Source: a virus. Taken from it: a DNA stretch of 21,042 nucleotides. The DNA is taken from IMG/VR virus record IMGVR_UViG_3300028025_006086, positions 1-21,042 of that record; one strand, given 5' to 3'. The position numbers were made by a program, and so were the translations under genes. The notes under the pieces were generated by a model. It did not search any database, had not been told where the DNA came from, and was given only the letters and a program-made list of their open reading frames with translations. Each line of letters starts with the position of its first letter. The first letter of the stretch is position 1. Of this stretch, positions 1 through 11,210 are shown one piece after another.

Positions 1-2
1 GT

Positions 3-224
3 ACAATCAAAACACCCAGTGTCATGGTCACTGAAAAAGCTCACATTGAAGATTTTTTAAGAAACTGCGATCGTAAAATGTTTCAAGAAATTAGAGATCA
101 TATTATAGAGCTGCGCAAGGATAGCGATTTTAAACCACTATCTATCAAATGCAGCAGTTGCGAACATGACTATCAGCAATCATTTACACTGAATCAATCT
201 AATTTTTTCGGCAACGCCTCTTAA
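3..224 (+). CDS. gp26: Baseplate hub protein, gp26-like, C-terminal part (5' end outside window)
   Basis: This is the last 73 codons of a gene that enters from the left edge. The frame is open from position 3, so the ATG at 24 is probably internal and not the start. The C-terminus carries a Cys-x-x-Cys pair followed about 20 residues later by a Ser-Asn-Phe-Phe-Gly sequence just before the stop. That ending is typical, from memory, of the T4 gp26-type baseplate protein family (Pfam T4_baseplate) in T4-like marine phages. T4 gp26 takes part in assembly of the central baseplate hub. The two Phe codons form a T TTT TTC slippery heptamer at 203-209, and the -1 frame is open into the following gp51-like frame, so this gene may make a second, longer product. 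The family call is based on the C-terminal motif only; the catalogue name is less certain than membership of the baseplate/tail-assembly group. Confidence 0.66.
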   Translation, partial: TIKTPSVMVTEKAHIEDFLRNCDRKMFQEIRDHIIELRKDSDFKPLSIKCSSCEHDYQQSFTLNQSNFFGNAS

Positions 225-249
225 CTTCTGGTCCTGAAGAAATTGAGGC
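203..249 (+). promoter_or_regulatory. Candidate programmed -1 frameshift site (slippery heptamer plus stem-loop)
   Basis: Seen directly: T TTT TTC at 203-209, in the correct register for the gp26-like frame (codons AAT TTT TTC). It is followed by a 6-base spacer (210-215). Then comes a stem-loop with outer arms GCCTC 216-220 and GAGGC 245-249, and inner arms CTTC 225-228 and GAAG 236-239. The gp26-like frame stops at 222-224. The -1 frame has no stop from 203 to 436 and runs into the gp51-like protein. Known: X XXY YYZ heptamers followed 5-9 bases later by a stem-loop drive -1 frameshifting, and tail-assembly chaperone genes of lambda and P2 use it. Inference: a gp26-gp51 fusion is made as a minor product. 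Confidence 0.55.
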
Positions 250-439
250 TATGGTCACTACCATGGACAAAGAAGCTGCGGATATACGGCGCGAAGCAGT
301 TAGAATGAGCTGGTATATGCGTGGCGGGATGACGTATGATCAAATTTTAAACTTGAGCTGGGATGAGCGAGTACAGATCAATGAATTGATCAAAGACAAT
401 CTTGAAACCACCAAGAAAACAAATTTACCTTTCTTCTAA
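209..439 (+). CDS. gp51: gp51-like baseplate hub assembly protein, probably a -1 frameshift extension of gp26
   Basis: The conserved core is a short helical protein with a Met-Ser-Trp-Tyr-Met-Arg-Gly-Gly motif, ending in Leu-Pro-Phe-Phe. I recognise this from small gp51-type (baseplate hub assembly catalyst) proteins of T4-like marine phages. If it is translated independently, the start would be ATG 251, giving 62 residues. However, that ATG has only GAGG two bases upstream, which is too close, and a weak AAGAA at 237-241. The frame is open back to 203, and the upstream codons read like protein (Gly-Pro-Glu-Glu-Ile-Glu before Met 251). I therefore give the interval for the frameshift extension, about 76 residues added to gp26. 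The stop TAA overlaps the ATG of the next gene by one base. The family is likely; the mode of expression is inferred. Confidence 0.6.
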   Translation, partial: RQRLLTSGPEEIEAMVTTMDKEAADIRREAVRMSWYMRGGMTYDQILNLSWDERVQINELIKDNLETTKKTNLPFF

Positions 440-942
440 TGGATTTTGAACAAGCCAAACTGGACATTGAGCAGTGGATCCGGGACTTTGTTGAAAAGCC
501 CAGTCCTGCACTCAACAACTGGGCACCGTGTCCGTATGCTCGTCAGGCTAGACTAGCCAATACCATTGTGATTGTACCCGGAAACGATCCTTACTTTGAT
601 TTGGTAAATCACTGGCGCTGGGGTATGCAGGGGCGAGAAGTTGTGGTGTTGGTGTATGATCCTGCTGTTGTCAGTGCTGACCGTTTAGAAAACTGTGCGC
701 TGATGGTACAGGTTAACTACTTTGACAACAAGAATATGTTGGCCTTAACTGATCATCCTGACTCACCAGAAATCATCAACGGTGTTGCAATGAATCAAGG
801 TGAGTATGCCCTGGTATTCATACAAGACAAAACTAAACTCAATGCAGCAGCGCAGCAGTTAGCTGGCAAAGGCTACTACCAAGACTGGCCCGAAGACTAT
901 CTCCAGGGCCTGTTTGCACATCGTCAGGACCCTAGACAGTGA
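439..942 (+). CDS. Conserved phage protein of unknown function
   Basis: A 167-residue soluble protein with no signal peptide or membrane segment. It resembles hypothetical proteins of similar size in marine T4-like phages that share an N-terminal stretch with a Pro-Cys-Pro-Tyr-Ala-Arg-Gln-Ala-Arg motif near residue 31; this is from memory and unchecked. The rest looks like an alternating alpha/beta fold, with strands such as Thr-Ile-Val-Ile-Val-Pro and Val-Val-Val-Leu-Val-Tyr-Asp. I see no catalytic signature I can name. The start ATG overlaps the TAA of the gp51-like frame (TAATG), and no Shine-Dalgarno sequence is visible, so translation probably restarts after termination upstream. The stop overlaps the GTG of the next gene. 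The tight packing suggests co-expression with the baseplate hub assembly genes, but the function is unknown. Confidence 0.8.
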   Translation: MDFEQAKLDIEQWIRDFVEKPSPALNNWAPCPYARQARLANTIVIVPGNDPYFDLVNHWRWGMQGREVVVLVYDPAVVSADRLENCALMVQVNYFDNKNMLALTDHPDSPEIINGVAMNQGEYALVFIQDKTKLNAAAQQLAGKGYYQDWPEDYLQGLFAHRQDPRQ

Positions 943-1379
943 CTTATCAATTTGCCAGGATTAATCTTGATGAAACCAATTACGTTGAGTCAGTGGAATG
1001 GCGATATCTTGAGCCCACCACTGAAGTATGTCAACAACTTGATGACATCTACAGAACCTACTGCATCTACAAGCATTTTGGATCTGTGATGCCAATGTTT
1101 CACAGTCGTTATCTTGACCCCATGGCTGACATCATCGGATACTACGACAATGCCAAACTAGTGGCCTGGAGTTTGATACGTAGATTTGATGATCGCAATG
1201 CCTTGTGCGATCAGTTTGCCTGGACATATCATCGTCCTCGATCAAGGTTAGGCATTGAAACAATGAAAACTGAATGTGCTATCTACCGGGCACGAGGTTT
1301 TGATTATTTGTATCTTGAGCAGGCACACTTGTACAAGAGTCAAATAGATGGATTTGAAATTTTAGGACCAATGACATAA
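939..1379 (+). CDS. Putative acyltransferase-fold protein, resembling the C-terminal half of Ate1/Bpt aminoacyl-tRNA-protein transferases
   Basis: A 146-residue protein starting with GTG 939, which overlaps the previous TGA (GTGA). AGGA at 926-929 lies nine bases upstream. From about residue 65 the order of elements resembles a GNAT fold as found in Bpt/Ate1. There are two strands (around Tyr-Tyr-Asp and Leu-Val-Ala-Trp-Ser-Leu), then Pro-Arg-Ser-Arg-Leu-Gly-Ile-Glu, which could be the cofactor-binding turn before a helix. A Tyr-Leu-Tyr-Leu strand follows, then a Tyr-Lys-Ser-x-Ile-x-Gly-Phe-Glu-Ile-Leu ending. Bpt proteins carry a comparable Tyr-Leu-Gly-Tyr-Trp strand and a Tyr-Lys plus Glu-x-Leu ending. 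The N-terminal Cys-rich domain of those enzymes is absent. The match is by eye to a fold, not a proven homology. A generic GNAT acetyltransferase, or an inactive relative, is equally possible. Confidence 0.5.
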   Translation: MTYQFARINLDETNYVESVEWRYLEPTTEVCQQLDDIYRTYCIYKHFGSVMPMFHSRYLDPMADIIGYYDNAKLVAWSLIRRFDDRNALCDQFAWTYHRPRSRLGIETMKTECAIYRARGFDYLYLEQAHLYKSQIDGFEILGPMT

Positions 1380-1711
1380 TGGACTTGTACACTATCTGGG
1401 CCGACAAACAAGGTGACATCACTGACCTTGAGTGGGTCACCAACATGCGCAGCTTCTTTGATCATCTTGTGGAAGAAAACAAGATGGAAAGTTATAGAAT
1501 CACACGTTGCAAGATGGGATTCAGATCAATTCCTGATATGCCTGAATGGATGATCATCATGGAATTCAAGGGCATGGCACAGATGGACGATGCGTTTCGC
1601 CGAGTGGCACCGCTGGAAGGTGAGCTTGAAGACAAACATCGTAGCTTCAATCAGTTTGTGTCAGGCAACATACAGCATGCCTTGTTCAGGGATTGGCCCG
1701 ATGACATCTAA
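1379..1711 (+). CDS. DUF6614-like small protein
   Basis: A 110-residue protein whose whole length reads like the small family I recall as DUF6614, best known from alphaproteobacteria. It has an N-terminal Leu-Tyr-x-Ile-Trp-x-Asp strand, a helix, and an Arg-Ile-Thr-Arg-x-Lys-Met-Gly-Phe strand. A central Glu-Trp-Met-Ile-Ile-Met-Glu-Phe strand and a Met-Asp-Asp-Ala-Phe helix follow, and the C-terminus ends Leu-Phe-Arg-Asp-Trp-Pro-Asp-Asp. The pattern suggests a ferredoxin-like/dimeric alpha-beta barrel fold. The biochemical role of the family is unknown to me. The ATG overlaps the previous TAA by one base, and the C-terminal coding sequence overlaps the next gene by 11 bases. The family number is from memory and should be treated as a lead. 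Confidence 0.62.
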   Translation: MDLYTIWADKQGDITDLEWVTNMRSFFDHLVEENKMESYRITRCKMGFRSIPDMPEWMIIMEFKGMAQMDDAFRRVAPLEGELEDKHRSFNQFVSGNIQHALFRDWPDDI

Positions 1712-2693
1712 AGTAGTATGTGTGACCAGCATTGGTCAGGTTGGAGCAACTTTTTTAGATTGGAGTTTGCATTGGCTTGCTGGACACACTGATATCTATA
1801 ACACCAGTCAACAGAGTTGGTTGGCATTGACTGCAATGCCCTTGACGCAAAACAATGCACACAGTCACGCCAAGAATCATCCTGCAGGACACGGGGAATT
1901 TCTGCAGACTGTTGAGAATCTACAACAAATTCCCACTGCAACTTTTCACTCTTGTTACGCAAGCCCGCTGGATTCGTATCAAACCGCACAGAATTTGTCT
2001 ATCACTGATCAGCAATTACAAGATGCAAAAATCTTAGAATGGTTAATGACCACAGTGGATCTTGACTACGCTCATATTTTTAAATCAGCACCTCAATTCC
2101 CACTCATCTACATACACACTGATTCACGGCACTCGTATTATCAATTGCTATCTATGTCACGAGCAAAAACAGATGGATACGTGGGATTTCATCAATGGTA
2201 TTTTCAGAGCAAAATGAAATCTGCACAGCACATATGGGATCAAAGAGAAATGCTGGCGCTGGATCTTCGACCCAGTTACCACTTAGAAAACGACTATATA
2301 GATTTTTCTGTTCCGCATTTGAGAGTTGATGCCGAAGAACTTTGGTACGATCCCACAGCAGTGGTAAAGCAATGCTTTGAATATCTTGACTGTGAAATTG
2401 ACAATACACGATGGGAGCATTGGAGAACTGTGGCCACTAATTGGCAGCAAATACAATTACCTCTATTAAAATTCTGCAGGGATATCAAACACATAGTCAC
2501 AGCCACAGTCAAGGGTTGGGATTTTCCACTGCCAAAACTATCATTGCTGCAAGAAGCCATGATTCAACATCACTTGATTTACGATCACAATTTAAACATT
2601 CGTAATTGGCAATTAGAAACTTTTCCAGATAATACAAACAAACTTCACAAACTGTTAGAGTCTAATCAACACGCTACAAGAACTACTTCGTAG
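1701..2693 (+). CDS. Sulfotransferase-like protein
   Basis: A 330-residue protein. The N-terminal strand-turn-helix Val-Cys-Val-Thr-Ser-Ile-Gly-Gln-Val-Gly-Ala-Thr-Phe-Leu resembles the 5'-phosphosulfate-binding loop of PAPS sulfotransferases (usually Arg-Ser-Gly-Thr-Thr-x-Leu), with the usual Arg lacking. Near the middle there is Ile-Tyr-Ile-His-Thr-Asp-Ser-Arg, plausible as the 3'-phosphate-binding strand. Near residue 220 a Val-Asp-Ala-Glu-Glu-Leu-Trp-Tyr-Asp-Pro-Thr-Ala-Val segment resembles the family's Tyr-Glu-Asp-Leu-x-x-Asp-Pro element. I chose ATG 1701 and not the in-frame ATG 1590, because 1590 would overlap the DUF6614-like gene by about 120 bases; AGGGA lies about nine bases before 1701. 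The protein could be catalytically altered. A +1 frame with protein-like sequence runs past its stop (see findings). Confidence 0.5.
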   Translation: MTSKVVCVTSIGQVGATFLDWSLHWLAGHTDIYNTSQQSWLALTAMPLTQNNAHSHAKNHPAGHGEFLQTVENLQQIPTATFHSCYASPLDSYQTAQNLSITDQQLQDAKILEWLMTTVDLDYAHIFKSAPQFPLIYIHTDSRHSYYQLLSMSRAKTDGYVGFHQWYFQSKMKSAQHIWDQREMLALDLRPSYHLENDYIDFSVPHLRVDAEELWYDPTAVVKQCFEYLDCEIDNTRWEHWRTVATNWQQIQLPLLKFCRDIKHIVTATVKGWDFPLPKLSLLQEAMIQHHLIYDHNLNIRNWQLETFPDNTNKLHKLLESNQHATRTTS

Positions 2694-2739
2694 TTCAGTT
2701 GATTTCGCTTACGCTCATCAACGATTGTCTTTAAGAGAT

Positions 2740-2818
2740 ATCATCCAGATAAAGCAGTCACTCTTTGCCCAGGGCGGGCAAAGAAAAAATGCGACATCAT
2801 CCGAGTATCACAGTCACT
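2740..2818 (+). repeat. Imperfect direct repeat (2740-2762 and 2796-2818) flanking a 9-bp hairpin
   Basis: Each 23-base unit has ATCATCC, then eight variable bases, then CAGTCACT. The two copies are offset by 56 bases and keep the same internal spacing (2740-2746 with 2755-2762; 2796-2802 with 2811-2818). The perfect 9-bp stem at 2762-2784 lies between them. The conserved ends with a variable middle could be a protein-binding or RNA element. I know no named element with this layout. Confidence 0.6.
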
Positions 2819-2920
2819 AGCATTAGGGTGTTTAGCAGAGGCGGTTGTCCGGTACCTCCATCCCCGTCTTTATTACAACGGCGGTTTATCAACAAGATGC
2901 TAGTCCTTGCCAACAAACGT

Positions 2921-2945
2921 GCTTGATCGCTCAAGCGTCTTTTTT
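2921..2945 (+). terminator. Rho-independent terminator, plus strand
   Basis: Perfect 6-bp stem GCTTGA/TCAAGC (2921-2926 and 2931-2936) with a TCGC tetraloop. It is followed by GTC and a run of six T (2940-2945), with further T-rich sequence to 2960. It would end transcripts of the left plus-strand operon about 230 bases after the sulfotransferase-like stop. On the minus strand the stem has no T run after it. Confidence 0.7.
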
Positions 2946-3094
2946 GCCTTTTGTCCTTTTCAAACAACTAAATCGCGGCGTTTGCGATCTTCATCCCTAG
3001 GGGTAGTAGTTGAGTGCTCACTAGCGCGGTGAGTCTTCCGTCCCTGTGATCTGAGATCCAGGTCTAGGGCACACGATGTTGGCCTGTGCTAGCC

Positions 3095-3529
3095 TTAGTT
3101 GCTTAATTTGCCTTTGATATGCGAGCCATGAACGCGAACTTGAATGTGACCATTGTAGTAGTCGTCTGATTCCAGCACACGTCTTGAGAATTGTTCACGA
3201 GCCTCTATATAACTGCATTCCGATTTGGTTTTGCAATAATACAGTATTTCGCGGGAGAAGTTTTCAATACCTAGTTGTTCAATGTCTTTGGAGAGTTCGG
3301 GTGATGAGCCATAGTATGTTTGCCAGTCTGAATCTATTGTATCTCTGATTTTCTTGCGCTTTTTGTTACCGTTTTTAAGTTTGACCACTCTATAAGTTGT
3401 TCGTTTAAATCTTGCCAGTTTTTTACCAATATACTTTCTGCCGGTTGTGTTGTTTGTGATCAAGTACACAAATCCCGCACAATCTTCAGGAAGCGTTTCT
3501 ACCACTAGGGATTCAAAGAGCCATGACAT
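3095..3529 (-). CDS. GIY-YIG homing endonuclease, SegE-like
   Basis: A 144-residue protein with a single GIY-YIG nuclease domain. The first motif is degenerate (Gly-Phe-Val-Tyr-Leu-Ile-Thr-Asn near residue 19, where the family has Gly-x-Tyr). It is followed by Gly-Arg-Lys-Tyr-Ile-Gly-Lys-Lys, the YIG element. A basic insertion rich in Lys/Arg comes next (about residues 40-62), then Trp-Gln-Thr-Tyr-Tyr-Gly-Ser-Ser. The catalytic-type Glu lies in Glu-Ala-Arg-Glu-Gln-Phe near residue 110. Length and pattern fit the free-standing SegE-like GIY-YIG group of T4-type phages, which cut DNA and spread themselves between related genomes. It is last in the minus-strand operon, 18 bases after the radical SAM gene, and borders the structured intergenic region. 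Endonuclease function is a family inference; it could also be domesticated. Confidence 0.78.
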   Translation of the reverse strand: MSWLFESLVVETLPEDCAGFVYLITNNTTGRKYIGKKLARFKRTTYRVVKLKNGNKKRKKIRDTIDSDWQTYYGSSPELSKDIEQLGIENFSREILYYCKTKSECSYIEAREQFSRRVLESDDYYNGHIQVRVHGSHIKGKLSN

Positions 3530-3547
3530 ACAGCATAATTTATCCCT

Positions 3548-4558
3548 TTACCACTGAGTTGCATATTCTTCTGTGACCACACTAGCAGCACATTTGGTTT
3601 GACATTCAATCCAACCATATGTTTTAAACTCGTCCTGCCAGAAATTGTCAGCAAGAACCTGCTGTAAATCCTGTGTGCGCAGGTTGTATTTGCGCCCTAA
3701 TTTTTCCCAGGGCTGGTTGTGTTCATAGCGATTGGCCACCCAACAGCAGGGGTAAAAGTTACCCTGTGCGCTGATATAGAGACCTTTATTGCCAATCGAA
3801 CACAAAGGTCTCACATTGTTTTGTACTTGACTGTCTGTGTAAAGTTGGCGATTTACAGGCCAAATTGTAGTGTTGCGACCTGTAAAATCAGTGACTTCAC
3901 GTTCAAACCGCAAGGTATTACTGATTAGTTCATCCCTGGGCTGCAGCTGATCTACAGGGCCGTAGCTAGGGTAACTTTTATAGAACTTAGTGCTGCGTGT
4001 CAACTGAAAACGATCCATGCCCAGGTCTTGAGCTTGAGATTTCATCTGTTCTAAATGTTGCTCGTTGAATGAGAATGCAATTGCAGCCCAGACAATTTGA
4101 CAATGACTTGCTGCTCGCAGGGCCCGAACACCAGTTATGATGCTGTGGTAATTGCTGTTGACACGATACTGATTGTTAGATGCATCATCGTAGCCATCAA
4201 TGCTGAAGTGTACGCTGTCTTGAGCAGATAACAACCCACCCAGGGCATGCCACCAGTCAGGGTCTTTGTAACTGCCGTTGGTGACAATCACAATTTCAAT
4301 ACCGGGCTTGGTATTTTTAAAATATCTAATAACTTCCAAAAACTCATGTGCGTAGATGGGGTCGCCATCATCGCCGCAGAATGTAAGTTTCTCTACATGT
4401 TGATGTATGAACGACTCGGGGAAGTTCTGCCAGAAGAATTCTAGATCTAGTTCGGTGTTTTTTAATCCTTCAGGTACTTCTTGACGAGCACAACGAGGGC
4501 ACCGCAAAGTACACTTGCTTGATATTTCAATGTGCCAGTGCCAAAGTGCTAGACTCAT
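3548..4558 (-). CDS. Radical SAM protein with SPASM-like C-terminal cysteines
   Basis: A 336-residue protein. Residues 16-23 carry the radical SAM Cys-x3-Cys-x2-Cys motif (C16, C20, C23) that binds the 4Fe-4S cluster and S-adenosylmethionine. A Cys-Gly-Asp-Asp-Gly-Asp-Pro stretch stands where the family has Gly-Gly-Glu-Pro, and strands Val-Ile-Val-Thr-Asn-Gly and Phe-Ser-Ile-Asp-Gly follow in the usual order. The C-terminal third has Pro-Leu-Cys, Tyr-Pro-Cys-Cys-Trp and a final Cys-x3-Cys. This looks like a SPASM/twitch-type domain for an auxiliary cluster. Such enzymes often modify peptides, but the substrate here is unknown and no obvious precursor peptide lies alongside. The start overlaps the gp46 stop (ATGA), so the two are translationally coupled. 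Radical SAM genes occur in several marine T4-like phages. Confidence 0.85.
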   Translation of the reverse strand: MSLALWHWHIEISSKCTLRCPRCARQEVPEGLKNTELDLEFFWQNFPESFIHQHVEKLTFCGDDGDPIYAHEFLEVIRYFKNTKPGIEIVIVTNGSYKDPDWWHALGGLLSAQDSVHFSIDGYDDASNNQYRVNSNYHSIITGVRALRAASHCQIVWAAIAFSFNEQHLEQMKSQAQDLGMDRFQLTRSTKFYKSYPSYGPVDQLQPRDELISNTLRFEREVTDFTGRNTTIWPVNRQLYTDSQVQNNVRPLCSIGNKGLYISAQGNFYPCCWVANRYEHNQPWEKLGRKYNLRTQDLQQVLADNFWQDEFKTYGWIECQTKCAASVVTEEYATQW

Positions 4559-6318
4559 ACTGTTTCAATATCCGTGTTATAACTTGTGAAGCCATTCTCT
4601 TTGACCACACGCAAGATGTTTTCAACTCGCCCAGCAAGTTCATCACGATGTGACACCAACCAAATACTCTTGCTGCGTTCACGACTCATCTTCTTCAACA
4701 GTGCAAGACTGTTTTCTACGCCTTGTGTATCCATGCCTGAATCAATCATCTCATCAATGAACAACAGGTTAATGGGACGGTATAAACTTTCCCAGACATC
4801 ACGGAACGCCCAGCTCATACTGAGTATGAGACGATTGCGTTCGCCACGACTTAAATTATCAAAGTCAAGTTCACGTCCCAGTTCTTCAATTTGCACAGTG
4901 AGATCGTTTTGGAACACCACTGTATGCGGTAAACCAATCCTATCAAGATAGTGTGTGAGTCTGGCATTGAGATAACTGAGATTCTGTTCGATGATCTTCT
5001 TGCGTATGAACGAATCCTTCTGTGTCAGCAGTTTCAACAAAAATTCTTGATGATCCTGTAAACGTGTGAGTTCGTTTAGTGTGTCGTACTCAACGGCCTG
5101 CACAGCCTGCGCAGTCATGTCAGCGATTTGATCAACATAAGGATCAACTTCGTTTTGCTTGGACATGAGTTGACTTAATACATGTGCCATACTTGAACGA
5201 TGCTCATAGGCATCAGACTCTTGATCGTAAAACACCTGTGGTTGAGTACCCAATGCACCAAGTTCACGTAATGCATCAGTATGTTCCATCCACTGACCGT
5301 TTGTAGACAGGGCCTGCATTGCGGCTTCGGACAAGGATTTTCTTTTGGCTTCTAATACCTGCTCGTGTTTGCTGTCATGGAACGCTTGTCCGCAACTATG
5401 ACAAGTGTGCTTTTCAAGACTGGCAATCTCCGACTTTAACTTTTCAATATCTTTCTTTTCTCTAGCGTCATCTAATTCACAGCGTTTGATCCAGGATGTA
5501 AGATCAGCAATGGCTTTTTTCTTGACGTTGTATTCGGACAATGCTTGATGTGATTGCAACTCAGTTTCAATATCAACCTTGCTGAGTTCGTCATAGGCTG
5601 CTTGAAATGCAGCAACATCTTCGTCGCGTTTCTTTTGCCAGAGAGTTTGCCTACGCCGTGCTGCATCAATCTGTTCTTCAATACGCTTGTTGGCTTCTTG
5701 CACAGCACGTATTCTAAATTCTTCTTGCTGAATGGCTTCTTTGGTTTGTTTGTTGAGTTCTTTGATACGATCAGCACGTTCACTCAACAACGTAATACCC
5801 AGCAACTGTTCAATGATCACACGTTGATCATTGGCTTTGAGACTTAGAAACGGTTCAGTGTAAGTGTTTAATGCCACAACATGTCGGAACATGTCGTGAC
5901 TCAATCCAAAGAGCCTTTCTATGGCATCTTGAGTTTCTCGTGAATCACCTTGCGCTTCGTCATCAACAGTGGTTTGTTCGTTGTCAACATAAAACTTTAA
6001 GATGTTGGGTTTACGCCCACGTTCAACACGATAGTTTTTCCCGTCAATGTTAAACTCCAAACTCACCAGCATATTCTTGCCATTGGTTTTGTTGATGAGA
6101 TTGTCTTTGCGAATGTTAGTCAATGCCTGTCCATACAAGGCAAAACTTAGGGCATTGATAATTGTAGTTTTACCAGTGCCATTCCTAGAACCATCTCCGC
6201 CTAGGTCAAGATTTTCTCCCAGCACCAGTGTAAGATCACGACGATTAAAATCAACTGCTTGTGTGGCATTGCCCACACTCATGAAATTTTTAACTGTGAG
6301 ATTGTTTAGTTGTATCAT
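4555..6318 (-). CDS. gp46: Recombination endonuclease subunit gp46 (Rad50/SbcC-like ATPase)
   Basis: A 587-residue SMC-type ATPase. With gp47 it forms the T4 Mre11-Rad50-like complex that resects DNA ends for recombination-dependent replication and host DNA breakdown. Residues 1-52 hold an extended Walker A region ending Asn-Gly-Thr-Gly-Lys-Thr-Thr (N46-T52), with a Gly-rich insertion that I recall as usual in marine phage gp46. Long coiled-coil arms (about 170-440) surround a zinc-hook Cys-His-Ser-Cys. The C-terminal head shows the ABC signature Leu-Ser-Arg-Gly-Glu-Arg, Walker B Leu-Leu-Phe-Ile-Asp-Glu and the Leu-Val-Ser-His switch. All motifs are intact. The start overlaps the stop of the SGNH-like gene (ATGA). 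Confidence 0.95.
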   Translation of the reverse strand: MIQLNNLTVKNFMSVGNATQAVDFNRRDLTLVLGENLDLGGDGSRNGTGKTTIINALSFALYGQALTNIRKDNLINKTNGKNMLVSLEFNIDGKNYRVERGRKPNILKFYVDNEQTTVDDEAQGDSRETQDAIERLFGLSHDMFRHVVALNTYTEPFLSLKANDQRVIIEQLLGITLLSERADRIKELNKQTKEAIQQEEFRIRAVQEANKRIEEQIDAARRRQTLWQKKRDEDVAAFQAAYDELSKVDIETELQSHQALSEYNVKKKAIADLTSWIKRCELDDAREKKDIEKLKSEIASLEKHTCHSCGQAFHDSKHEQVLEAKRKSLSEAAMQALSTNGQWMEHTDALRELGALGTQPQVFYDQESDAYEHRSSMAHVLSQLMSKQNEVDPYVDQIADMTAQAVQAVEYDTLNELTRLQDHQEFLLKLLTQKDSFIRKKIIEQNLSYLNARLTHYLDRIGLPHTVVFQNDLTVQIEELGRELDFDNLSRGERNRLILSMSWAFRDVWESLYRPINLLFIDEMIDSGMDTQGVENSLALLKKMSRERSKSIWLVSHRDELAGRVENILRVVKENGFTSYNTDIETV

Positions 6319-7061
6319 TGATTGGTTTGTAAACGTTCAATTAAAAAGTTTGCCCAGGCTTGATGTCCGTCTTGGTCAGGATGACCGTGCAGCCTAAATG
6401 TTTTTGATTCTTTAAACTTGAATCCTTTTGATAAAATATATCCATTGAAAGAAGTAGTCCAAGGGTTGACAACGAATGGATTACTTTCAACTTCTTCACG
6501 TAGACTTTTTATAAACGGAGAATTGTATCCAACTTTACTATCATCAGTAAATGCATCTGGGCTAGAAAATATTATATGACGTATGTTGTTGTTGTGGGCC
6601 CAGCCCGAAAACATTATTATGTCAGTCAATAGATCAGTAACAGCACTTTCAGCGTGATAGTGCAACAACCATTGCTGATAATAATCTTTCACACGACGAT
6701 CAGCCAAGTTAGCTATGTCTGGCACAATAGTATCTATCAGACCTTTGATACTCCAGTCAACTTTTGAATGATCAACCATAATTGGCCGAAAGTGCCCATC
6801 GTTCTCTATTGCAGGCAACCACGGTTGCCAAAGTTCAGCACGAGCAATAAATGTCAACCCGAGTACTGCCACAATATCTTGATGTTGTTGTTTTAGTTCT
6901 GTTAAATCTCTAATAGAAGTTCTGATAATTCGTCGATTGGTTGCCCCTGCCATACCACTGTTGACAACCTCTGCCCCCAATGATTCGGCAATAATCTCAG
7001 GATAAATTTTATGTCCTTGCCCTGGGCTACCTGGACTACAGGAATTGCTATAGACGATCAT
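6315..7061 (-). CDS. SGNH/GDSL hydrolase-like protein
   Basis: A 248-residue protein with an SGNH-like layout. The N-terminal Ile-Val-Tyr-Ser-Asn-Ser-Cys-Ser-Pro-Gly stands at the block I position, and Asn-Ser-Gly-Met-Ala-Gly-Ala-Thr-Asn (near residue 34) fits block II with its Gly. A Leu-Gly-Leu-Thr-Phe strand stands near block III, and His-Pro-Asp-Gln-Asp-Gly-His near the C-terminus matches the Asp-x-x-His block V. Known members hydrolyse esters on lipids or sugars. Here the block I motif departs from Gly-Asp-Ser, so activity is unproven; related phage proteins are, as I recall, filed as DUF6071. It lies between gp47 and gp46, one base after the gp47 stop and with an ATGA overlap into gp46, so it is expressed with the recombination complex. 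A role there is not established. Confidence 0.62.
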   Translation of the reverse strand: MIVYSNSCSPGSPGQGHKIYPEIIAESLGAEVVNSGMAGATNRRIIRTSIRDLTELKQQHQDIVAVLGLTFIARAELWQPWLPAIENDGHFRPIMVDHSKVDWSIKGLIDTIVPDIANLADRRVKDYYQQWLLHYHAESAVTDLLTDIIMFSGWAHNNNIRHIIFSSPDAFTDDSKVGYNSPFIKSLREEVESNPFVVNPWTTSFNGYILSKGFKFKESKTFRLHGHPDQDGHQAWANFLIERLQTNQ

Positions 7062-7062
7062 A

Positions 7063-8079
7063 TTATAATTCTTGATATATTTTTAACAGCAGTTTTGAAT
7101 CATAGAATTCTGATGCAATGTTGGTGAGTTGATCTGTGACAATTTGATCCACTGACTCAAATCGTACTTCACCAGGTGCCATGTCAACATCTATGGCAGC
7201 ACTCTTGTTGGGTATTAAAGCCATCTCACGCAAGTGATAGTCTTTGATAAATGTTTCTTTGATAAAGTTTGCTTCTTCATAGCTGATATCTATGTCAAGC
7301 TCAACTCTAACATGCATATTCTTGGCCAACACGTCAGGAGCATTGTTGATGACATCTGACAGTCTCAACACACGATAGCGAGGTTGATCAGGCCAAGCAT
7401 GATATTCAGGTTCTTTGCCCCATTCAATGATCATTGCACCACGTTCGTCATCATGATTATCGGCAAAGTTATGTGGGAAGCAGTTGCCAATGTAGGTGAT
7501 GTTTTTGTAGGTCTGACGTTTGTGGAAGTGACCAGAGAACACATGGCCAATGCCACCAAAGTCCTCACGTTTGATGTCACCATGGTCTGGCATTTCTACC
7601 ATGGCATTCATCTTAAAATGCGGTAGCTCAAAGTGCCCAAACATGTACTTGGCTGATAATTTTGGTATGCGTTTGTAGTCTTCGCCCACTAACCAAGGGG
7701 CCACAATAACATCACCGCTGTGTAACCAATCATTACAAATGACCACATTCGGTAAATGTTTAGCCCACTCAACACTTTGGACATCACGTTTATCACGATA
7801 ATATAAGTCATGATTGCCAGGAATGAAAAACACACGATCGAAGTTGTCGTTGAGATGTTCCAGAGCACGGAGACTATAGTTAAGAGTGACAATATTGATA
7901 CTAGCACGATGGTTATGCCAATCTCCAAGAAACATAGCTGTTTCACAGTTGTTTTCCTTTGCTAGTTTGGTTGCCCACTTGACAAAAGCCAAACAGTCAT
8001 CGTTGTGAGTTTGACTGTTTGACTTTAGTCCAAAGTGGATGTCAGTGAATACTACTGCTTTTTTAAATAAGTTGGCCAT
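7063..8079 (-). CDS. gp47: Recombination endonuclease subunit gp47 (Mre11/SbcD-like nuclease)
   Basis: A 338-residue metallophosphoesterase, the nuclease partner of gp46. The metal-binding motifs appear in the family order: Asp-Ile-His (D13, H15), Gly-Asp-Trp-His-Asn, Gly-Asn-His-Asp, then Gly-His-Phe-Glu and Ser-Gly-His-Phe-His-Lys-Arg. The length matches T4 gp47 (about 340), and all two-metal ligands seem present. The C-terminal portion (about 250-338) should be the capping and gp46-binding region. The gene starts at ATG 8079, 14 bases after the gp55 stop. No clear Shine-Dalgarno sequence is visible. A possible promoter overlaps the end of gp55 (see separate entry). It acts in recombination-dependent replication and end resection in the infected cell. 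Confidence 0.95.
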   Translation of the reverse strand: MANLFKKAVVFTDIHFGLKSNSQTHNDDCLAFVKWATKLAKENNCETAMFLGDWHNHRASINIVTLNYSLRALEHLNDNFDRVFFIPGNHDLYYRDKRDVQSVEWAKHLPNVVICNDWLHSGDVIVAPWLVGEDYKRIPKLSAKYMFGHFELPHFKMNAMVEMPDHGDIKREDFGGIGHVFSGHFHKRQTYKNITYIGNCFPHNFADNHDDERGAMIIEWGKEPEYHAWPDQPRYRVLRLSDVINNAPDVLAKNMHVRVELDIDISYEEANFIKETFIKDYHLREMALIPNKSAAIDVDMAPGEVRFESVDQIVTDQLTNIASEFYDSKLLLKIYQEL

Positions 8080-8087
8080 ATGACAAC

Positions 8088-8116
8088 ATTATACTAGTCG
8101 TCATTGAAAGTTGCAA
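8088..8116 (-). promoter_or_regulatory. Possible sigma-70-type promoter before gp47
   Basis: On the minus strand TTGCAA (8116-8111) and TATAAT (8093-8088) are separated by 17 bases. The -10 is perfect and the -35 matches 4 of 6. The predicted start of transcription (about 8081) would leave almost no leader before the ATG at 8079. That is unusual and lowers confidence. It could be chance within the gp55 3' end. Confidence 0.3.
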
Positions 8117-8987
8117 CCGGAATGGACATCACCGCCCCGGAACTTTTGCCGGAATTTTGTCTAGTCCAACTTGGGTTCAATCCGTTCATCTCCAAAATGT
8201 CATCACGTATGTTTTGCATTTTCTTTTCAATGTTCAAGATACGAGTAAAGCTGTTGGTGATGGCAGCAGTGTAATAGGCAAACGGATTCTGCGACTTTGA
8301 TTCGTCAAACTGCAGGCCAATCTGGCTGAGTTGCAACAGAGCCTGACCACGCATTTCTTCGTTGTAGGTATACCCACGCCAGTTGCTACGTGTGGCATAC
8401 CGTTCACACAGCTTCATAAACATCAGTGCCAGCTTCTTGGTCATTTGTCCGTGCTCCTTGCAGAACTCACCGGTTTCCAAATCACCGCGCCAGTGCGATT
8501 TGCCCACAACAAATGGTTGCTTGTTCTCATCAATTCTGTAGTGCCAGAACGGAGGAAAGTTAACACGCATGTGTGCCATGTCCAGCACAGGTTCAATTAC
8601 CAGATCATCAACTGTGGGCTCGTCTACGATTTCAAACAGTTCTTCTAAGCTGGCTTTTTTTGCTGCAGCCTTGGTGATTTTTTTGGGAGCCTTGGGCACA
8701 TGTTCCCAGGTGGTGATTCTAAAAACCAAGTCGGTGTTGGGGATTTTTTTGGGATCAACGATTGTACCGGTTTCACGTTTGATACGATCTGCACGATTGC
8801 GCCGAGCTTCGGCCACAGTTTTTTGATTGATTTTTGCCACACTGGGTAGAATAATATCAAACTGATGATCAATTGCTGGATCAACAAACGAGCAGTAAGT
8901 GTTTTTTGAAAAATGTATTTCTTTGAGTATGTCGCGATTGTTTAGATAGTTGACGCGGGGCGCCGTGCGTGGTATGGTTACAGACAC
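8094..8987 (-). CDS. gp55: Late-transcription sigma factor, gp55-like
   Basis: A 297-residue protein. The C-terminal region (about 170-270) carries the pattern I associate with phage gp55. It has a helix with Arg-Tyr-Ala-x-Arg-Ser-Asn-Trp-Arg-Gly-Tyr-Thr-Tyr-Asn-Glu-Glu-Met, then Phe-Asp-Glu-Ser-Lys-Ser-x-Asn-Pro-Phe-Ala-Tyr-Tyr-Thr, then a basic helix. This corresponds to sigma region 2, which binds host RNA polymerase and melts the -10-like late promoter. In T4, gp55 works with gp33 and the sliding clamp gp45. T4 gp55 is about 185 residues. The N-terminal ~165 residues here, with a Lys/Ala-rich patch near 105-120, are an extra domain of unknown role. The start is GTG 8987, supported by AGGAG at 8996-9000 with seven bases of spacing. 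A strong promoter lies directly upstream. Confidence 0.85.
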   Translation of the reverse strand: MSVTIPRTAPRVNYLNNRDILKEIHFSKNTYCSFVDPAIDHQFDIILPSVAKINQKTVAEARRNRADRIKRETGTIVDPKKIPNTDLVFRITTWEHVPKAPKKITKAAAKKASLEELFEIVDEPTVDDLVIEPVLDMAHMRVNFPPFWHYRIDENKQPFVVGKSHWRGDLETGEFCKEHGQMTKKLALMFMKLCERYATRSNWRGYTYNEEMRGQALLQLSQIGLQFDESKSQNPFAYYTAAITNSFTRILNIEKKMQNIRDDILEMNGLNPSWTRQNSGKSSGAVMSIPVATFNDD

Positions 8988-9011
8988 AGATGTTCTCCTA
9001 ATTGTGTACTT

Positions 9012-9039
9012 ATTGTAGCATTTTTACAACAATTGTCAA
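9012..9039 (-). promoter_or_regulatory. Strong sigma-70-type promoter for the gp55-gp47-gp46 operon
   Basis: On the minus strand TTGACA (9039-9034, perfect) and TACAAT (9017-9012, 5 of 6) are 16 bases apart. An extended -10 TG lies one base before the hexamer. Transcription should start near 9005, leaving a leader of about 18 bases that contains AGGAG. The form fits recognition by the unmodified host polymerase, hence early expression. Confidence 0.75.
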
Positions 9040-9072
9040 CCATTTCTTAAACATAGCCGTTTATTTTTTGAT

Positions 9073-9080
9073 TAAATACA
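9073..9080 (+). promoter_or_regulatory. Candidate late promoter element TAAATACA before the gp48-like gene
   Basis: TAAATACA ends 15 bases before ATG 9096. The same eight bases at the same distance precede gp6. T4 late promoters recognised by gp55 have a TATAAATA box and no -35, so this is a credible equivalent. AGGAA at 9086-9090 is the ribosome binding site, five bases before the ATG. Confidence 0.55.
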
Positions 9081-9095
9081 CAAACAGGAACAACT

Positions 9096-11210
9096 ATGCC
9101 TTATATCAGTGAAAACGGCCAAACTAGGTTTGTAAGCCAAGCAGAATTTGAAGCTTTTAACGAAGCGAATGGAATACCTGGCCCCCCGCCACGTCGTGGT
9201 AGATCAACAAACTCTACCACAGCACCGGCCGGCGGCACGGTTACAGATGTATCAGGTCCCAACAATGGACTCACTGGCCGAGAACGGCGTGCATTGGTAG
9301 CGCAACAGCAAGCACAAGTAGAATCTGAACTCAGTTCAGTAGATGCAACTCTGGCTCAGGCCAACACAGGAAAAATAACTCTCAGCCCTGAAGCAGTCGC
9401 TAAGTTAGAAGCTAGAAAAAATCAACTTGGTGATAATTTTAACAAACTTGAAAGTGGACAACCGGTTACAGATGGATCTCTAGAAGGTGGGCGTGCCACA
9501 CAAAAGATTTTAAATCCCAACACTTCAAACACTTCACCTGATCAGCCGTTGCCCACAACGTCAGAAAAAACAGCCAACAACAGCAACGTAGATCCCAACG
9601 CCGGATTTGTTCCTCAGTCCAACCGCACTGGTGCAGTGCCCACGCCTGAGTTTGAGGTGAGGCCCTTAGCACCCACTGAAGACGATGCTATCAACCAAGC
9701 AGTAAACGAAGCTCGGGCAGCGCGGCAAGTGCCAACAAGTGAGATAGCGCAGTCACCCCCAGAATTTTCAGGTAGTGTACCAACCTCCTCGGCACAGTTT
9801 GTTCCCTCTTATAACTTTGCCAACAATGCACCACTTGAGCAAGCTCCAGACAGCCAGTCTGGGGCAGTTTTCAACTCTGACGGTCAGGTTGTTGGATATA
9901 GATCACGTGGCATAGTTGAAACCATCACACGTGATGCGCCAGATCAACCAGTGAGTGTAGATCCAGGTGCTGCTGCAAGAGCGTTGGCAACACCGGGCAT
10001 TTTTGTGAACGAGCCTGATCCAGTTGCTGATACCAATTCTTTGGGAGTGGCAACACAATTCACCGGAGTTAATCAATTCCAACAAGGTGTGCCTGCTGAC
10101 GATCCACTCAGTGGCATAGCCGACGAAGCCGAACAACGAGACAAAGAGTCTGTGATTGGTGGCTCGCTGCGAACTGCAGCCACTTCACAAGAAAACCCCT
10201 TTACCAACCCCTATGGTGACAGACCTGAACCCAGTGCTGATCAACTCAACACTGATCCGGTATCTCCAGCAGACAGCGGCACAGGTTATGTTCAAGGCTT
10301 TGGCACTAACCCAGAATTCATAAACACTGATCCCAACAATCCGTTTGCTGCCAATCAGCAACAGTTAAAAGACGAGGCTCGTAACCAACAGGCCTTGCGT
10401 GAACAGAAGTCAGGATTCAACGACAAAGATTGGCGAGTCAGACTTGCATTGTCGCAGCAGGCACAGTATCTGTACAAAGTGGCAGCACCTGGTGATGTAC
10501 TCTATCCATTGAACATTACCAATGGAGTGATATTTCCTTATACGCCTCAAATACAAACCAGTTACCGAGCCAACTATCAAAAGTATGACATGACTCACAG
10601 CAACATGCGTGGGTTGTTTTATCAAAATTCCAGCCCAGGTGAAATATCAATTAATGGAACATTCACAGCACAAGACACCAACGAAGCCAATTACCTGTTG
10701 GCGGTGATACATTTTTTCAAAAGCGCCACAAAGATGTTTTACGGACAAGATGCACAGGCAGGAACACCACCACCAATCCTATACCTATCAGGCCACGGAC
10801 AATACCAGTATCGCCTGCATCCCTGTGTGCTGGAGAGTTTTAATTACAGTCTACCAGCAGATGTTGACTACATACGAGCAGGCAGTGTAACTGTCACTAA
10901 TACCAATTTGATTACTCGCAGAGATCGCCAGAGCAATGTACCCACTAGTACGTCGCCAATTTATTCGGCGATATCTAGATTAAAAACCATTTTTATGCCC
11001 AAGGGCGCATTGCCGCAGGCCAAAGCAATGTCATCATTTGACACTGCTGGAAATTCAACTGAGTTGGGTGGCAACGATTCAACTTATGTACCCACACACA
11101 TGGAAATACAATTGACATTGATACCAATACAGAGCCGTAGTCAGATGAGCAAACAGTTCAGTGTAAAAGAATTTGCACAAGGTAATCTATTGCGCGGGGG
11201 ATTCTGGTAA
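9096..11210 (+). CDS. Baseplate tail-tube cap protein, gp48-like, with long disordered N-terminal extension
   Basis: A 704-residue structural protein in two parts. Residues 1 to about 440 are low-complexity, rich in Pro, Asn, Gln, Thr, Asp and Ala, with one likely helical segment at about 60-120. Residues about 441-704 form the conserved part. It begins Lys-Asp-Trp-Arg-Val-Arg-Leu and contains Ile-Phe-Pro-Tyr-Thr-Pro-Gln-Ile, a Phe-Thr-Ala-Gln-Asp-Thr-x-Glu-Ala-Asn-Tyr stretch and a Leu-Pro-Ala-Asp-Val-Asp-Tyr-Ile segment, and ends Leu-Arg-Gly-Gly-Phe-Trp. I recognise this domain from marine T4-like phages as the gp48/gp54 type, which joins the baseplate to the tail tube; gp48 fits better because of the C-terminus, but gp54 is not excluded. 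It is first in the late block and overlaps gp53 by one base (TAATG). Confidence 0.72.
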   Translation: MPYISENGQTRFVSQAEFEAFNEANGIPGPPPRRGRSTNSTTAPAGGTVTDVSGPNNGLTGRERRALVAQQQAQVESELSSVDATLAQANTGKITLSPEAVAKLEARKNQLGDNFNKLESGQPVTDGSLEGGRATQKILNPNTSNTSPDQPLPTTSEKTANNSNVDPNAGFVPQSNRTGAVPTPEFEVRPLAPTEDDAINQAVNEARAARQVPTSEIAQSPPEFSGSVPTSSAQFVPSYNFANNAPLEQAPDSQSGAVFNSDGQVVGYRSRGIVETITRDAPDQPVSVDPGAAARALATPGIFVNEPDPVADTNSLGVATQFTGVNQFQQGVPADDPLSGIADEAEQRDKESVIGGSLRTAATSQENPFTNPYGDRPEPSADQLNTDPVSPADSGTGYVQGFGTNPEFINTDPNNPFAANQQQLKDEARNQQALREQKSGFNDKDWRVRLALSQQAQYLYKVAAPGDVLYPLNITNGVIFPYTPQIQTSYRANYQKYDMTHSNMRGLFYQNSSPGEISINGTFTAQDTNEANYLLAVIHFFKSATKMFYGQDAQAGTPPPILYLSGHGQYQYRLHPCVLESFNYSLPADVDYIRAGSVTVTNTNLITRRDRQSNVPTSTSPIYSAISRLKTIFMPKGALPQAKAMSSFDTAGNSTELGGNDSTYVPTHMEIQLTLIPIQSRSQMSKQFSVKEFAQGNLLRGGFW

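Follow-up and report, generated by a model that had tools for sequence, protein, structure and literature searches.

T4-like aquatic phages that are rich in radical SAM genes are a kind already published. One report describes a T4-like genome with 12 such genes (PMC5332604), another describes pelagimyophages, likewise T4-like, with radical SAM cassettes in a variable region (PMC7029224), and the consulted part of a third notes that such genes are prevalent in viromes of the Tasman Sea (PMC7150976). The environmental phages of the first report resemble the carriers of the gene studied here, rSAM1, in being T4-like and in having many radical SAM and Fe-S assembly genes; in the parts of the first two reports considered here we found no mention of the rSAM1 subfamily or of the gp46-segE slot in which it lies (PMC5332604, PMC7029224), and neither was found in the literature searched. 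On the enzyme side, twitch domains bind one auxiliary cluster, which in BtrN is held by four cysteines and likely accepts an electron during a two-electron oxidation, MoaA with its three ligands being stated as an exception in the part of the source considered here (PMC9012708).

The window analysed is an entire virus record of 21,042 bases, from a virus of water. On its minus strand, genes for a gp55-like sigma factor, gp47, a DUF6071 protein, gp46, rSAM1 and a SegE-like nuclease follow one another in this order (Table 1). We found rSAM1 to be exchangeable cargo beside the SegE-like nuclease gene in aquatic T4-like phages. Our tentatively preferred reading is that this cargo encodes a competent twitch-type enzyme which would carry out a BtrN-like oxidation of a sugar-like small molecule or surface glycan.

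Table 1. Coordinates in the window of rSAM1, its putative functional motifs and the surrounding features.
Feature	Position	Strand	Evidence
Predicted sigma-70-type promoter TTGACA-16-TACAAT with TG, upstream of gp55	9012..9039	-	motif scan
gp55-like late sigma factor, first in presumed minus-strand operon	8094..8987	-	phrog_12791, 8e-77
gp47 (SbcD-like subunit)	7063..8079	-	phrog_100, 1e-57
DUF6071 protein, between gp47 and gp46, second variable site	6315..7061	-	PF19547, 30.4 bits vs 27
gp46 (SbcC-like subunit), left slot border, ATGA overlap with rSAM1	4555..6318	-	phrog_77, 8.7e-101
rSAM1, radical SAM protein of putative twitch type, 336 aa	3548..4558	-	ORF, Pfam, PHROGs, alignment, AlphaFold model
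Radical SAM cluster motif CTLRCPRC, codons of C16-C20-C23	4490..4513	-	sequence; 105/105 members
FCGDDGD stretch, codons with C61, G62, G65, D66	4361..4381	-	alignments
Predicted auxiliary cluster site, first half: codons C253 to C271-C272 (PLC...GNFYPCCW)	3743..3802	-	alignments
Predicted auxiliary cluster site, second half: codons of C319-x3-C323	3590..3604	-	alignment A2
segE-like GIY-YIG nuclease, right slot border	3095..3529	-	PF19835, 116 bits
Polynucleobacter-1 RNA (RF01718), full-length	2962..3094	-	118.3 bits, cut-off 37, E 1.5e-25

The rSAM1 ORF starts with ATG, and its product scores above the cut-off of the Pfam model Radical_SAM (PF04055, 36.2 bits; cut-off 29.5) and matches the radical SAM family phrog_21308 in PHROGs (7.8e-20). 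AlphaFold2, run with alignment A2 (67 rows, paralogues of rSAM1 included), predicted a radical SAM fold with a mean pLDDT of 94.1 and a pTM of 0.93, and dN/dS between the window gene and five close relatives was 0.056-0.087 over the five pairs. Because purifying selection, a PF04055 score above the cut-off and a confident fold come together, rSAM1 is no chance ORF; sequence and predicted structure confirm it as a real, conserved radical SAM enzyme, which is how the sequence-only reading had described it.

Our main set of 105 sequences consists of viral relatives, three MAG contigs and the window, and is divided by identity to the window's rSAM1 into group A (at least 58%, 82 sequences), group B (44-47%, 6) and group C (28-33%, 17). 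The earlier observation that the cluster cysteines are all present holds throughout this set, since C16, C20 and C23, spaced as CX3CX2C, are kept in 105 of 105 aligned members; so are E11, R25, C61, G62, G65 and D66. The FCGDDGD stretch is presumably a family-specific form of the SAM-binding GGEP-like motif. Invariant in all 67 rows of A2 are E11, C16, C20, C23, R25, G62, G65, D66, T93, W103, F118, D121, G122, R132, W157, N165, C253, G266, C271, C272, C319 and C323. Judged by these residues, rSAM1 is probably active as an enzyme.

The C-terminal part had been called SPASM-like. A SPASM domain has two auxiliary clusters and a seven-cysteine motif; rSAM1 was found to have neither enough C-terminal cysteines for such a two-cluster domain nor a score over the cut-off of the SPASM model (PF13186, 20.3; cut-off 21.5). 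C253, C271, C272 and C323 occur in 104 of 105 aligned members, and the single miss is a gap, taken to be the row of the truncated L105. C319 is present in 67 of 67 rows of A2 and in 87 of 105 of the script alignment, a shortfall attributed to a one-residue shift in 17 group C rows that read ECC or similar. After residue 240, group A members (n = 82) have five cysteines in 74 cases, six in seven and none in one. Five conserved C-terminal cysteines are too few for two clusters, so a single-cluster twitch-type domain fits the sequence better than SPASM, and we replace the earlier label accordingly; which four of the five would bind the cluster is not fixed by the count.

Comparison of the rSAM1 model with solved structures by VIA-align gave Z values of 18.7 for SuiB, 18.5 for SkfB, 18.4 for BlsE, 17.9 for DesII, 17.6 for anSMEcpe, 17.5 for MoaA, 17.0 for ChlB, 16.7 for a viperin-like enzyme, 16.1 for PqqE and 15.3 for BtrN, where rows within 1 of each other count as tied; all of the 50 structural matches listed are radical SAM enzymes. 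Foldseek placed BlsE at the top (E 3.1e-10) and viperin second, and a sequence profile searched against solved structures placed the peptide enzyme SkfB first (E 1.2e-6). BlsE (PDB 7vob), of blasticidin S biosynthesis, aligns over 265 residues, but at 17% identity and with no antibiotic-pathway genes among the searched genes of the window. SuiB and SkfB (PDB 5v1s, 6efn) differ from rSAM1 in that their alignments begin at chain residue 102, after an N-terminal part that rSAM1 lacks. BtrN (4m7t) has in common with rSAM1 the CX3CX2C core, few conserved C-terminal cysteines and the fold, whereas sequence identity is ~15% and rSAM1 is viral and has an invariant cysteine pair (CC). We also take it that BtrN-type enzymes have the usual motif where rSAM1 has CGxxGDP. 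Since peptide and small-molecule enzymes tie in the structural ranking, the fold does not name the substrate, and naming rSAM1 by its fold was rejected on the tie of SuiB and SkfB with BlsE.

Naming by family was rejected as well, all NCBIfam models scoring far under their cut-offs. The named families tested include TIGR04317, NF033640, viperin (NF038283) and MoaA; the best score was 52 for TIGR04317, against a cut-off of 380; N_Twi scored 38.7 against 170, viperin 31.3 against 180 and MoaA 27.3 against 284. By E-value only, TIGR04317 matches 67 of 67 members of A2 (best E 4.6e-20). Membership in a radical SAM family of known, unrelated substrate had been named as the result that would speak against the sequence-only reading, and no NCBIfam model nears its cut-off for rSAM1.

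Relatives were collected from viral contigs by a protein scan, which gave 29 loci, and by an alignment-based scan, which gave 537 relatives; the best 80 of these were studied, 8 of them already among the 29. The annotated phage collection has matches in 4 of 50,697 records, all below 30% identity and with coverage of no more than 59% of the protein, which leaves no cultured carrier of rSAM1 to consult. Most of the close relatives found come from viruses; a small clade belongs to one alphaproteobacterial order. A scan of bacterial and archaeal contigs with viral-derived patterns confirmed three relatives from 65 pattern matches. Among 190 alphaproteobacterial genomes, the A2 profile found a cellular homologue in G044 (204 bits); a Pelagibacter MAG contig scored 367 bits and has, by eye, the order primase, rSAM, helicase of phage group C. 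Beyond these two, nothing exceeded 93 bits in the 190 alphaproteobacterial or 398 phylum genomes. Counting G044 itself, 7 of the 61 genomes in its order have a relative at 59-100% identity, and an eighth has a weak match (E 9.7e-9). For the phylum of the Flavobacterium MAG, 93 of 198 genomes gave matches, none above 85 bits, while the MAG's own fragment scored 99 bits. The idea of a virus-only family was rejected on the G044 homologue and its relatives in that order. The cellular homologues (L127, L221-L226) lie, by eye, in the rpoZ-rel-pdxJ region in three cases (rpoZ itself listed in two, folK in one), near groEL in three and near a suf operon in one; these neighbourhoods are inconsistent and thus give no substrate. 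In a tree of 45 sequences, several deeper nodes of which are poorly supported, the cellular clade groups with distant viral sequences, outside rSAM1 (support 0.87).

In the group A loci, which were sampled through rSAM1 itself (n = 82), the gene upstream of rSAM1 is another radical SAM gene of its family in 40 and gp46 in 37, the remainder being an N-twitch radical SAM gene in two, other genes in two and a contig end in one; segE follows rSAM1 in 70. As this sample is biased by design, loci were sampled by gp46 instead, taking the best 80 of at least 596 gp46 relatives (T4-like phage loci). The gp46-segE gap was empty (<100 bases) in 24 of them, at 29 to 78 bases, and carried cargo in 51; segE was not found in 5. 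rSAM1 occupies the slot in 27 of these 80 best loci, and an ORF of the rSAM1/2/3 cluster (single-linkage BLAST) occurs in 40 of the 51 with cargo. Other cargo, named by eye, comprises two types with the CX3CX2C motif (525 aa in six loci, 333 aa in three), an unplaced 181-aa protein in six, an SGNH-like protein in five, and six further ORF types in one or two loci each. The view of rSAM1 as a core phage gene was rejected, because the 70 of 82 came from the rSAM1-chosen sample and the gp46 sample shows a slot. The empty loci carry segE too, which makes segE the fixed neighbour, and it may have a role in moving the cargo. Barth and co-workers, in the part of their paper considered here, placed nuclease genes at exchange boundaries and proposed HEG-islands; a slot beside a SegE-like gene fits this picture (PMC10448857). 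Thus rSAM1 looks like exchangeable chemical equipment and not a fixed part of the virus, and a slot with empty, single and tandem states offers natural comparisons for the role of a single gene. A further idea, which we consider unlikely, is that the space between gp46 and segE serves as a dedicated exchange site, kept open next to the SegE-like nuclease, and that the radical SAM enzymes which aquatic T4-like phages trade through it alter a surface glycan or virion component, with effects on superinfection exclusion or host range.

A second variable place, a cassette site, lies between gp47 and gp46. Identity of the DUF6071 protein is 50-90% among L001-L008, where gp46 and gp47 exceed 92%, and other loci have other genes there instead. 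The reported coupling of rSAM1 to gp46 by ATGA was found in the sequence, and the two genes lie at a distance of -4 nt in 23 of 77 measured pairs. An extended promoter is predicted ~25 bases upstream of gp55. It ranks first among 21 matches in 2600-9200, where shuffles lead one to expect 13.7 (sd 4.2), and is for this reason a lead only. The earlier statement that rSAM1 is made early goes back to operon position and this predicted promoter (9039-9012), and we soften it to early expression in infection being plausible. The closest matches to the baseplate proteins in the annotated phage collection come from large T4-like phages of Erwinia and Serratia (~35% identity), and the nearest segE is that of Methylophilales phage Melnitz (51%), which lies one small gene from ribonucleotide reductase genes and has no annotated gp46 within the 14 kb shown.

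Related phages have further radical SAM genes, a feature that, like the slot, is absent from the sequence-only reading. Among 13 virus records chosen for carrying the rSAM1 family, all 13 have PF04055 matches, 2 to 21 each, counting some under the curated cut-off and with one gene able to give two. Tandem arrays of 400-460-aa N-twitch radical SAM genes, recognised by eye, occur in L106-L110 together with a carbamoyltransferase gene (by Pfam on L106, by eye on the rest). Distant relatives lie among annotated amidinotransferase and nucleotide-sugar transferase genes in Campylobacter phage F379, and among annotated carbamoyltransferase and aminotransferase genes in Pelagibacter phage Mosig. An aminoglycoside-like cluster was considered and rejected, the island genes being outside the operon of rSAM1. 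For the distant viral relatives L141-L220, a methyltransferase-like gene, assigned by eye and with no match in Pfam, lies within 6 kb in 69 of 80 loci. Genes for S-adenosylmethionine synthetase and a NifU/IscU-type scaffold are near the radical SAM gene in nine of the 80 (L144 at 6001-9928, L145, L146, L150, L152, L153, L155, L157 and L219); this same group is also near an FAD/NAD oxidoreductase gene, the names of these genes being given by Pfam on L144 and L152. These synthetase, scaffold and oxidoreductase genes are possibly a support kit for radical SAM chemistry. The radical SAM genes and neighbourhoods described in this paragraph support the idea, through paralogues of rSAM1, that related phages supply such chemistry of their own.

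Whether a peptide is the substrate was approached through short ORFs. In 1-9100, 12 ORFs of 15-110 aa lie mostly clear of the listed genes, and none resembles a conserved coding peptide; a conserved 62-aa gene (251-439) was set aside as a normal gene. Eight of the 12 fall in 2725-3074, where both strands and several frames are occupied and it is the DNA itself that is conserved, a pattern suggestive of noncoding conservation; the others are three of 16-23 aa and one (24-224) that is the 3' end of a gene crossing the left window edge. This agrees with the earlier remark that no precursor peptide is visible nearby. A peptide-recognition (RRE) domain or extension was not found in rSAM1 itself, whose first strand starts from residue 7 in the AlphaFold model. 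The lack of both an N-terminal extension and a precursor ORF argues against rSAM1 being a classical RiPP maturase.

By the preferred reading, a [4Fe-4S] cluster on C16, C20 and C23 would split S-adenosylmethionine, the resulting 5'-deoxyadenosyl radical would take a hydrogen atom from the substrate, and an auxiliary cluster on C253, C271 (or C272), C319 and C323 would accept an electron. From the five conserved C-terminal cysteines and the analogy with BtrN, we infer that the net outcome may be a two-electron oxidation of the BtrN kind. The substrate would be a surface glycan or sugar-like small molecule that is produced or changed in infection, and not a dedicated precursor peptide. The sugar-type neighbours of distant phage radical SAM genes point this way, but they belong to distant paralogues, and the operon of rSAM1 itself consists of replication and recombination genes; the tie of SuiB and SkfB with BlsE and the rank of SkfB as best sequence match also weigh against it. 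The same two peptide enzymes, at the head of the structural list, favour a somewhat unlikely alternative in which rSAM1 modifies a phage or host protein, such as a tail fibre or host machine, by oxidation, epimerisation or cross-linking in the manner of SuiB, SkfB or anSME. Consistent with such a target, group B members in L009-L013 (46-47% identical) lie 1.7 to 2.5 kb upstream of genes that look tail-fibre-like by eye, and a gene of the Asp/Asn hydroxylase type (PF05118, one member) is near distant relatives in 25 of 80 loci. The missing recognition extension and the fruitless search for a precursor ORF in 1-9100 count against it, as does the finding that no conserved candidate target gene other than gp46 and segE lies next to rSAM1. 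The sequence-only reading had suggested a host or phage protein as target; the context of the distant relatives leans slightly to small molecules and glycans instead. Either a surface glycan or a virion protein as substrate, if true, would explain why phages invest in expensive, oxygen-sensitive chemistry.

Genomic position also bears on a nucleotide or phage DNA base as target, in DNA hypermodification or a nucleotide pathway, which we consider improbable. rSAM1 adjoins gp46/gp47, and in 13 of the 17 group C loci the radical SAM gene has, by eye, primase and helicase as its immediate neighbours on the two sides; in the other four a single additional gene follows the primase. We further assume that T4 DNA glucosyltransferase genes lie near 47 and 41, and count this in its favour; against it, the slot also holds genes that, by eye, are unlike DNA-modifying ones. 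It is very improbable that rSAM1 is ordinary cargo under relaxed selection, without a consistent phage function. Such cargo would accord with 53 of the 80 gp46 loci in which rSAM1 was not found in the slot (3 of them unreadable to segE), but the low dN/dS and the unbroken conservation of the radical SAM cysteines oppose it.

Several features beside the operon deserve mention. The Polynucleobacter-1 RNA begins at the base right after the segE stop and is here phage-borne. Of 25 distinct sources scanned, 15 have it; L237 and L238, whose slot is empty, are among these, and the RNA therefore goes with segE and not with rSAM1. In the portion consulted of the 2010 paper, it is reported from Burkholderiales and from fresh water and estuary (PMC2864571). 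A second conserved noncoding element lies at 2694-2961 (core 2741-2890), between convergent operons. BLAST matches to it occur in 56 sequences, the window and duplicate loci included, at up to 100% identity; no Rfam family matched it, and its consensus fold is weak, with two-sided changes in 3 of 22 pairs. A terminator-like hairpin is present on the plus strand at 2919-2938. Also on the plus strand, 251-1711 encodes the 62-aa protein, which ends in KKTNLPFF, a 167-aa protein, a GNAT-like protein (by eye) and a DUF6614 protein (PF20319), and these genes recur in 23 to 41 of the 105 loci, depending on the gene.
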